Position numbers and translations under genes: made by a program. Shown in pieces: positions 5,278-12,393 of a stretch of DNA of 64,000 bases (positions are counted from its first letter, which is position 1; each line of letters begins with the position of its first letter). The notes under the pieces were generated by a model. That model was not told the origin of the DNA. It saw nothing but the letters and a program-made list of their open reading frames with translations, and did no database searches. The stretch is from Actinophytocola gossypii (lineage in GTDB: Bacteria > Actinomycetota > Actinomycetes > Mycobacteriales > Pseudonocardiaceae). The stretch spans positions 340,047 through 404,046 of the forward strand of contig NZ_JAFFZE010000016.1 in NCBI RefSeq assembly GCF_025165815.1, given 5' to 3'.

Positions 5278-6260
5278 CAGTTCGCCCCCGAGAACTCGGC
5301 GCGCCGCGACACGATCCACCGCGCGAGCATGTTGACCACCAGCGTGATCACGAACAGCACCAGGCCGGTGAAGATCAGCACGTTGATCCCGACTCCGCTG
5401 GACTCCGGGAACTTCAGCGCGATGTTCGCGGCGATGTTCTGCTGCTGGCCGGGCCGCAGGATGAGGAACGAGTACAGCAGCCCGGGCGAGAGGACCATGG
5501 CGACGGCCATCGTCTCGCCGAGCGCGCGGCCGAGGCCGAGCATCGCGGCGCTGATCACGCCGGACCGGGCGAACGGCAGCACCGTCATCCGGATCATCTC
5601 CCAGCGGGTGGCCCCGAGCGCGAGCGCCGCCTCCTCGTGCAGCGTCGGCGTCTGCAGGAACACCTCGCGGGACACCGCGGTGATGATCGGCAGGATCATC
5701 ACCGCGAGCACGATGCCGGCGGTGAGGATCGTGCGCGGCGGGTCGGCGGCCGGGCCCTCGAAGATCGGGATGAAGCCCAGGTTGGTGGCCAGCCAGTCGA
5801 ACACCGGGTACAGCTTGGGCATCAGCCACAGGCCGCCCCACAGGCCGTACACGACGCTGGGGATCGCGGCGAGCAGGTCGATCACGTAGGCGAAGCTCGT
5901 GGCCAGCCGCCGCGGCGCGTAGTGCGAGATGAACAACGCGACGCCGATGGCGATCGGCGTCGCGATGATCAGTGCGATGAGTGCGGCCAGGATGGTGCCG
6001 AACACCAGTGGGCCGACGTAGTCGAGCAGCGACTGGGCCTCGCCGATCCAGTGCACCTCCTCGGCGAGCTCGGCCGAGTCGAGTTGGATCGCCGGCCAGG
6101 CCTGCACGATGAGGAACAGGGCGACGGCGGCGAGGATCACCAGGATCAGCACGCCGGCGGCCTTGGCGCTGATCGAGAAGATGAGGTCGCCCGGTCGCTG
6201 TGGCGCGCGTTGCTTACCCGGCCGCGCGGGCTTGGCCGCCGGGTCGCCCGTTGTGGTCAC
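5277..6260 (-). CDS. pstC: Phosphate ABC transporter permease PstC
   Basis: A 327-residue inner-membrane permease with about six membrane segments and an EAA-type loop ([18 protein letters not shown]) for contact with the ATPase. The basic N-terminus ([16 protein letters not shown]) is cytosolic. It is coupled to pstA by a one-base stop/start overlap and lies 95 bases downstream of pstS. With PstA it forms the translocation pore that receives phosphate from PstS. Confidence 0.96.
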
Positions 6261-11043: not shown

Positions 11044-11049
11044 TAGGGT
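11044..11049 (+). promoter_or_regulatory. -10 box TAGGGT of a leaderless transcript
   Basis: TAGGGT ends seven bases before the GTG of the leader peptide at 11057, the spacing at which transcription starts on the start codon itself. No clear -35 is seen. It should drive the leader peptide and the downstream rhodanese/DUF1416 operon. Confidence 0.6.
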
Positions 11050-11056
11050 TGGCGCC

Positions 11057-11134
11057 GTGTACACCTTGCTGACCAGGCGCCGCGCGGTCGACTACTGCCG
11101 CGTCGACTCCAGCCTGTGTCCGGCGAGCGTCTGA
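11057..11134 (+). CDS. Cysteine-containing leader peptide of the sulfurtransferase operon
   Basis: A 25-codon reading frame encoding V-Y-T-L-L-T-R-R-R-A-V-D-Y-C-R-V-D-S-S-L, then CPASV and TGA. It has the TRRRAVD...R.xxSxLC pattern I associate with the putative leader peptides found before sulfur-metabolism genes in actinobacteria. The start coincides with the expected transcription start, so it would be translated leaderless. It contains two Cys codons (TGC, TGT). It ends 82 bases before the sulfurtransferase ATG, with a 7-bp stem (11136-11142/11156-11162) right after its stop. Cysteine-dependent ribosome stalling is inferred, by analogy with mycobacterial cysteine-responsive attenuators. 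Confidence 0.72.
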   Translation: MYTLLTRRRAVDYCRVDSSLCPASV

Positions 11135-11204
11135 CGAGCGGACCCCTTCTCGGCCTCCGCTCATCCCGCGTATCCCCGCGCGTCCTGATCCACCCAACGA
11201 AGGA

Positions 11205-11216
11205 GAGAGCGCTCTC
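11205..11216 (+). promoter_or_regulatory. Perfect palindrome between ribosome site and start codon
   Basis: GAGAGCGCTCTC is a perfect 12-base palindrome placed between the AAGGAG ribosome site (11200-11205) and the ATG at 11217. In RNA it could pair and reduce access to the start, which would suit control by the upstream leader peptide. It could equally be a DNA operator half-site arrangement. Confidence 0.4.
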
Positions 11217-12059
11217 ATGAGCCGCGAAGACGTGTTGGTCACGGCCGAGTGGGCCGAAGAGAACCTCGGCACCGCCGGGGTGGTGTTCGTCGAGGTCGAC
11301 GAGGACACCTCCGCGTACGACGGCGGGCACATCCCGGGCGCGGTGAAGATCGACTGGAGGACCGAGCTGCAGGACCCGGTGCGCCGCGACTTCGTCGACC
11401 GCGCCGGCTTCGAGAAGCTGCTGTCCGGCAAGGGCATCGCCAACGACGACCGGGTGGTCCTCTACGGCGGCAACAACAACTGGTTCGCCGCGTACGCGTA
11501 CTGGTACTTCAAGCTGTACGGCCACGACAAGGTGCAGCTGCTCGACGGCGGCCGCAAGAAGTGGGAGCTCGACGGGCGCCCGCTGTCCGCCGACGCGGTG
11601 ACCCGCGAGGAGACCTCGTACTCGGCCAAGGAGCAGGACACGGCGATCCGCGCGTTCCGCGACGAGGTCGTCGAGGCCATCAACGCCAAGAACCTGGTCG
11701 ACGTGCGCTCCCCCGACGAGTTCTCCGGCAAGCTGCTCGCCCCGGCGCACCTGCCGCAGGAGCAGGCGCAGCGCGGCGGGCACATCCCGTCGGCGATCAA
11801 CGTGCCGTGGAGCAAGGCGGCCAACGAGGACGGCACCTTCAAGTCCGCCGACGAGCTGCGTGAGCTGTACTCCGACGCCGGGATCGACGAGGGCAAGGCG
11901 ACCATCGCCTACTGCCGCATCGGCGAGCGGTCCTCGCACACCTGGTTCGCGCTGCACGAGCTGCTCGGCTACTCGGACGTGAAGAACTACGACGGCTCGT
12001 GGACCGAGTACGGCTCGCTGGTCGGCGTGCCGGTCGAGACCGGTCCCGGCACCCAGTGA
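11217..12059 (+). CDS. cysA2: Thiosulfate/3-mercaptopyruvate sulfurtransferase (rhodanese)
   Basis: A 280-residue protein of two rhodanese domains. The N-terminal domain (about 1-140, VEVDEDTSAYDGGHIPGAV) lacks a catalytic Cys; the C-terminal domain has the active loop YCRIGERS with Cys233. It transfers sulfane sulfur from thiosulfate or mercaptopyruvate to an acceptor. AAGGAG precedes the ATG. The next gene is a DUF1416 protein, the same pair as cysA2-sseC2 (Rv0815c-Rv0814c) in M. tuberculosis. Regulation probably involves the upstream leader peptide. The gene name follows synteny. Confidence 0.93.
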   Translation: MSREDVLVTAEWAEENLGTAGVVFVEVDEDTSAYDGGHIPGAVKIDWRTELQDPVRRDFVDRAGFEKLLSGKGIANDDRVVLYGGNNNWFAAYAYWYFKLYGHDKVQLLDGGRKKWELDGRPLSADAVTREETSYSAKEQDTAIRAFRDEVVEAINAKNLVDVRSPDEFSGKLLAPAHLPQEQAQRGGHIPSAINVPWSKAANEDGTFKSADELRELYSDAGIDEGKATIAYCRIGERSSHTWFALHELLGYSDVKNYDGSWTEYGSLVGVPVETGPGTQ

Positions 12060-12069
12060 GGAGACCGCT

Positions 12070-12393
12070 ATGACCACCACCGTGACGAGTGACGGGTGCG
12101 GCGCGCCCGAGCAGACCGCCGAGCTGCCGGCCGGGATCGACCTGGCCAAGGAGATCGTGCTCGGCGGCAAGGTGACCGCGGACGGCGCGCCGGTCGGCGG
12201 CGCGTACGTGCGGCTGTTGGACGCGAGCGGCGAGTTCACCGCCGAGGTGGTGTCCTCGGCCGACGGTGACTTCCGGTTCTTCGCCGCGCCCGGCCGGTGG
12301 ACCGTGCGCGCCCTGCACCGCACCGGCAACGGCGAGACGACGGTGACCGCGGACGGCCCCGGGCTGCACCCGGTGGCGGTCACGGTCGAGTAG
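12070..12393 (+). CDS. sseC: DUF1416 protein (SseC-like)
   Basis: A 107-residue protein of the DUF1416 family, a small Ig-like or carboxypeptidase-regulatory-like beta fold (GGKVTADGAPVGGAYVRLLD, FFAAPGRWTVRALH). A Cys sits in the conserved N-terminal segment SDGCGAP. It starts 10 bases after the rhodanese stop with GAGGAG in between, so the two are co-transcribed. The family is restricted to actinobacteria and always tracks with this sulfurtransferase; its biochemical role, presumably in sulfur transfer, is not established. Confidence 0.9.
   Translation: MTTTVTSDGCGAPEQTAELPAGIDLAKEIVLGGKVTADGAPVGGAYVRLLDASGEFTAEVVSSADGDFRFFAAPGRWTVRALHRTGNGETTVTADGPGLHPVAVTVE

Follow-up and report, generated by a model that had tools for sequence, protein, structure and literature searches.

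The locus described here raises two related questions: (i) whether a 25-codon reading frame with two separated cysteine codons, lying ahead of a sulfurtransferase gene, is a leader that responds to cysteine; and (ii) how such a leader could do so, when accounts of actinobacterial cysteine attenuation have so far relied on consecutive cysteine codons. The frame lies in a 64,000-nucleotide stretch of Actinophytocola gossypii DNA, here called the window. An earlier note on this DNA had read it as a leaderless cysteine leader of the mycobacterial kind in front of a sulfurtransferase operon, with a regulatory role for a palindrome next to the first gene. The leader, the operon and the mycobacterial kinship held up in the analysis that follows, and the role of the palindrome did not. 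Most likely, the ribosome itself would act as the sensor of cysteine shortage by means of a tiny leader gene at the 5′ end of the transcript. The switch is of a known type; what is different here is that there are only two cysteines, set apart from each other, and that the terminal cysteine codon is an unusual one, a trait shared with its relatives across the actinobacteria.

Organization of the locus

The features of the locus, with the basis for each, are as follows.

11044-11049, + strand: -10 element TAGGGT, of the TAnnnT type (sequence; spacing in homologues)
11057-11134, + strand: leader peptide ORF, almost certainly leaderless, 25 codons plus TGA (conserved upstream of cysA)
11096-11098, + strand: Cys14 codon, TGC (sequence; leader comparison)
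11117-11119, + strand: Cys21 codon, TGT, the proposed sensing codon (sequence; leader comparison)
11136-11162, + strand: post-stop stem-loop of 7 bp, with arms GAGCGGA (11136-11142) and TCCGCTC (11156-11162) (family-wide enrichment)
11193-11216, + strand: remnant of a DUF4395 coding tail, holding the cysA SD and the palindrome (blastn to G001, G003 and G005; frame)
11200-11205, + strand: cysA SD, AAGGAG (sequence)
11205-11216, + strand: 12-bp palindrome GAGAGCGCTCTC, between the SD and the ATG (sequence)
11217-12059, + strand: cysA, rhodanese-type sulfurtransferase of 280 aa (PF00581, E 1.2e-35, two stretches)
12070-12393, + strand: DUF1416 protein of 107 aa (PF07210, E 2.3e-43)

Seven bases (11050-11056) separate TAGGGT from the GTG at 11057, and the frame, which encodes MYTLLTRRRAVDYCRVDSSLCPASV, ends with the TGA at 11132-11134. 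Cys14 and Cys21 are seven codons apart, and there is no run of adjacent cysteine codons. The element, the 7-base gap, the 25-codon frame with its two cysteines and the stem all agree letter for letter with the earlier description. After a distance of 82 nt come cysA and then the DUF1416 gene at 12070, which we take to be sseC-like, confirming the arrangement of a cysteine leader before a sulfurtransferase operon. The closest named CysA match is that of Actinophytocola xinjiangensis (91%). An LmeA-like gene in the same orientation (PF11209, 10071-10973) lies just ahead of the leader. Between 10000 and 13000 we found no sigma-70 consensus site, and on neither strand an intrinsic terminator, so that the terminator looked for in an attenuator is missing from this interval. 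Comparison with known RNA families gave only a chance-level match, on the opposite strand (17.7 bits against a gathering score of 37).

Conservation of the leader upstream of cysA

CysA (E <= 1e-60) was present in 54 of the 60 genomes of the relatives search, A. gossypii itself included, and in 53 of these 54 the leader lies upstream of cysA (51 by motif pattern, plus G016 and G054). The remaining genome, G040, is 86% complete; CysA is present and the leader was not seen. Loss of the peptide from relatives that keep the operon had been named in advance as evidence against the leader, and the finding is that peptide and operon are retained together in these 53 of 54 genomes. Across the class, a leader precedes cysA at 103 of 106 further loci (81 + 5 + 17 by relaxed pattern); two of the remaining three are contig ends, with G153 and G090 stopping short of the site, and in G185 the leader was not seen. 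Among named loci, 78 of 80 have a leader (74 by pattern, 4 by eye), and the upstream DNA of the other two, L305 and L340, is missing. All of these counts are of related genomes rather than of independent events. Matches in G119, G148 and G083, together with weaker paralogues, fall outside the fetched set, and tallies at E <= 10 are excluded, because 8 of 14 control genomes also match at that level.

The leader at 11057 is almost certainly leaderless and translated, judging from its conserved spacing to the promoter. In a set of 52 homologues, which includes G046 (a weaker CysA, with the leader present), 50 have TAnnnT 6-8 nt ahead of an RTG in the reading frame, the distance being 7 nt in 45; shuffled sequences gave a mean of 0.4 and a maximum of 3 of 52 (200 shuffles), and the start codons were picked among in-frame RTGs with TAnnnT as one criterion. 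The same 6-8 nt spacing occurs in all 74 pattern-found named leaders. The earlier placement of a leaderless start at 11057 is thus supported, as a position deduced from spacing.

The terminal cysteine codon

A family-wide pattern appears in the codon at position +7, which corresponds to Cys21 of the window. All 155 cysA leaders compared, from 38 families, have cysteine there, and in 152 the codon is TGT; G016 and G054 each add a further TGT, for a total of 154 of 157. The motif patterns required parts of the peptide, so that amino-acid conservation is partly by construction, and the pattern for named loci additionally required Cys at +7; the third base of the codon was imposed by none of them. 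The three TGC codons at +7 all come from one family, f8, where they occur with adjacent cysteine codons. Elsewhere most cysteine codons are TGC. For the other cysteines of a 138-leader set, position 0 is TGC in 123 and TGT in 9, and the remainder are TGC in 92 and TGT in 28; the background is 50 TGC and 0 TGT in cysA, 86 and 5 in DUF4395, and 218 and 20 in the CDS-like ORFs of the window. In the named set the terminal cysteine is TGT in 74 of 74, and the other cysteines are TGC in 60 and TGT in 55, i.e., polycysteine tracts mix both codons. A rare TGT as the near-fixed terminal cysteine codon, family-wide, is newly described here. These codon counts, too, come from related genomes, a dependence that the Fisher values calculated for them leave out of account.

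Two candidate causes of the TGT were tried and rejected. Across 51 homologues, changing the T to C shifts the predicted opening of the SD by 0.12 (sd 1.33), which speaks against RNA folding; in the window alone, the same change at codon 21 weakens the predicted fold from -72.1 to -69.1 (about 3 kcal/mol). Pairing beside the D codon was seen in 60 of 137 cases against 69.1 expected.

The number of cysteines is variable. Cys14 is kept in only 132 of 155 leaders and is therefore dispensable. One cysteine is found in 17 of the 155 leaders, two in 69 and three in 48; G016 supplies an eighteenth one-cysteine leader; in all eighteen the only cysteine is the terminal one, within the conserved peptide. 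The one-cysteine cysA leaders of family f34 (L172, L179, L180, L181, L183, L187, L196 and others) read WKRRAIDFGRAASMLC, with TGT last. The unclustered cysteines of the window had been taken as a hint that the mechanism may differ; separated cysteines are, however, nothing odd, and two cysteines are the commonest state (69 of 155).

The peptide around the terminal cysteine is also constrained. All 155 leaders have R at -6; L at -9 and D at -2 are each present in 154 of them and R at +1 in 150. Synonymous codons vary freely within the core, e.g., Val at -3 is GTC in 58, GTG in 45, GTT in 17 and GTA in 9. The pN/pS ratio is 0.45 for the core from -9 to +6 without its cysteines, compared with 0.98 for codons 2-4 (3000 sampled pairs).

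Relation to other leaders

The window leader clearly matches NCBIfam NF042933 (leader_Ms5788A) with 34.2 bits (E 1.5e-8; curated cut-off of 45 not reached) and NF042934 (cis_reg_atten) with 22.1 bits (E 8.2e-5; curated cut-off of 27 not reached). This sub-cut-off similarity and the position before cysA bear out the proposed kinship with mycobacterial cysteine leaders. In common with Ms5788A, the window has a leaderless short ORF with a terminal cysteine before an orthologous sulfurtransferase gene, and a core LTxRRAVDxCRV; unlike Ms5788A, it lacks a polycysteine tract, its two cysteines standing apart, scores below the cut-off, and lies directly before cysA after loss of DUF4395. Earlier papers describe a cysteine uORF with ribosome occupancy before cysA2/Msmeg_5788 in Mycobacterium smegmatis (PMC4633059) and report cysteine attenuation by such leaders in that species (PMC13236596, PMC9031893); PMC9094748, PMC13236596 and PMC9031893 report or cite Canestrari 2020. 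A further case, from PMC8632094, is uORFC-8-2 before cysS in Rhodobacterales, likewise a short ORF whose cysteine codons are proposed to sense charged tRNA-Cys; it has tandem cysteines, dominant UGC and a U-run terminator, whereas the window leader has separated cysteines, UGU last and no terminator found. Among the papers listed by literature searches, none dealt with a role for UGU, with the peptide motif or with nascent-chain arrest in such leaders; papers beyond those searched, Canestrari 2020 among them, may do so.

The same 19-position core is shared by the NF042934 leaders, a wider family not shown upstream of cysA, in which the terminal cysteine is TGT in 53 of 54 and TGC in one (57 rows less the mis-oriented L210 and L211, and L220, which is the cysA leader of G066). 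Most of those read have one cysteine, and TAnnnT lies 6-8 nt upstream in only 18 of the 57 rows. A leader with this core, L215, is 384 nt upstream of a cysteine-synthase-like ORF with a PALP domain. A clear exception to the TGT pattern is the sulfite-reductase leader of the genus. The second leader of the A. gossypii genome (L062, 1486-1571; G000:C4, match 5589-5645), MSAAKEVRLVARRHVDFVRVSSAMCQRVR, precedes a NIR_SIR (nitrite/sulfite reductase) gene and has a single cysteine, encoded by the one TGC among those 54 leaders; the terminal codon is TGC in all six genomes of the genus counted (its own and five congeners), L352 being outside the count because it does not match the pattern.

Loss of DUF4395 between the leader and cysA

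In 39 of 52 loci the gap between leader and cysA is at least 300 nt and contains an ORF of about 145 aa with a shared DPRGxRF start; the one copy scanned, from G005, is DUF4395 (E 9e-45). The congeners G001, G003 and G005 have this gene, which ends in TPTKERALx and overlaps cysA at ATGA. The window, G002 and G004 are without it at this place, and no DUF4395 match is left anywhere in the A. gossypii genome. Similarity between the window and G005 covers 11062-11160 and resumes at 11193, with about 470 more bases in G005 where the window has 32, and the frame ahead of cysA still reads HPTKERALS-stop. From the blastn match and this residual frame it follows that the cysA SD and the palindrome are a former DUF4395 coding tail. 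The 32 unmatched bases (11161-11192) are the deletion junction; G002 and G004 have other remnants. As read from these comparisons, loss of DUF4395 placed cysA directly behind the leader, an order found in other families too.

Predicted folding of the spacer

In 55 of 138 leaders a stem of 7 bp or more begins within 5 nt past the stop, compared with a mean of 23.9 in shuffled sets (sd 4.1, maximum 40; 100 sets). That of the window begins two bases past the stop, and its length of 7 bp was equalled or exceeded in 3 of 100 shuffles. Because the post-stop alignment of six congeners is too gappy for covariation, their stems were scored by search and shuffling: five of the six have a stem, with differing arms and individually matched by 3-15 of 100 shuffles, and G004 is without one. 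At one locus, L028 (G025), a 39-codon leader has its stop inside the DUF4395 SD, one base from the ATG, and so there is no room for a spacer hairpin.

In silico, the energy needed to open the SD changes by a mean of -1.14 kcal/mol over 50 homologues when a ribosome mask covers the second cysteine, compared with -0.44 kcal/mol in shuffles (sd 0.30, largest drop 1.01; 20 sets), and by +0.08 when the mask covers the first. Among positions with at least 50 leaders, the mean effect peaks at +7 and +8. The effect is -1.42 against -0.54 shuffled in the 37 DUF4395-bearing loci, and -0.36 against -0.17 in the 13 loci with cysA directly behind the leader. In the window a stall moves the opening only from 9.2 to 8.7, a predicted effect of 0.5, compared with 2.8, 3.3 and 1.4 in G001, G003 and G005. 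The unstalled SD is not shut more tightly than in shuffles (homologues 8.67; shuffles 8.36, sd 0.41), and that of the window, at 9.2, opens more readily than its counterpart in 16 of 20 shuffled sequences. The model thus weakly suggests a stall-driven release of the SD that is modest family-wide and weak in the window; it gives the coupling step little support here and does not support strong sequestration.

Possible mechanisms

In our preferred reading, the leader is probably a cis attenuator of the Ms5788A kind, i.e., a leaderless, cysteine-responsive leader that controls cysA and the DUF1416 gene. Transcription would begin at the GTG itself, as the conserved spacing suggests, and the ribosome would translate the constrained peptide up to the last cysteine codon, UGU at codon 21. 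When cysteinyl-tRNA is scarce the ribosome would wait there, a step for which published support comes from the M. smegmatis homologues; sensing at codon 21 is probable. The waiting ribosome might then refold the short spacer and improve cysA translation. On the modelling, it is possible, at somewhat less than an even chance, that in this species the stall is coupled to cysA through freeing of its ribosome site.

A variant that refines and overlaps this explanation is that the ribosome becomes prone to arrest through the conserved peptide lying in its exit tunnel, and that one wobble-read UGU is then enough to sense cysteine or a different sulfur signal. Known arrest peptides include TnaC and SecM, and by analogy the spread conserved residues would act in the tunnel. 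The near-invariant R, D, R and L amid free synonymous variation, the low core pN/pS, the leaders with a single cysteine and a TGT unexplained by folding across homologues or by D-codon pairing all argue for it; together, the near-fixed TGT and the one-cysteine leaders with their conserved peptide make sensing at a single codon, assisted by the nascent chain, a better fit than simple stalling on a polycysteine run. Against this, the core could be inherited or serve another level, the genus's sulfite-reductase leader uses TGC, mycobacterial polycysteine tracts show repetition as an alternative, and in the window the T-to-C change does weaken the fold. We consider the variant a serious candidate that falls a little short of even odds, and hold with the same reserve that leaders of this class are single-UGU nascent-chain cysteine sensors, of which the mycobacterial polycysteine tract would be a special case.

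Other readings are less probable. Transcription attenuation in the spacer, intrinsic or Rho-dependent and set by leader translation, could draw on the stem past the stop and on the C-rich spacer, but with no terminator-like site on either strand between 10000 and 13000 it is unlikely. An equally doubtful proposal is that the leader is partly uncoupled here, the DUF4395 deletion having taken the original target site and left a relic translation; the deletion scar, the disappearance of DUF4395 from the genome and the small predicted stall effect fit it, but the peptide, its TGT and the spacing to the promoter have all been kept, the stem is retained, and other families also have the leader directly before cysA. 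The earlier suggestion that termination-linked unmasking of the palindrome governs cysA translation is very improbable. The palindrome does sit between the SD and the ATG, but it is leftover coding sequence, is not perfect in G002 and G004, which likewise lack DUF4395, and is one of 46 perfect palindromes of 12 bp that the window contains; we rejected it as a regulatory element.

Finally, we return to the preferred reading of a ribosome that would sense cysteine shortage on a leader peptide. The leader of the window and those of most relatives examined have no run of cysteine codons, and some have a single cysteine, yet their last cysteine codon is almost always the rare UGU and the peptide before it is constrained. 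If both the codon and the nascent chain contribute, one sensing principle would extend across many, mostly unannotated, leaders. The window provides an example of how such a leader may come to stand directly before a different first gene once the intervening one is lost.
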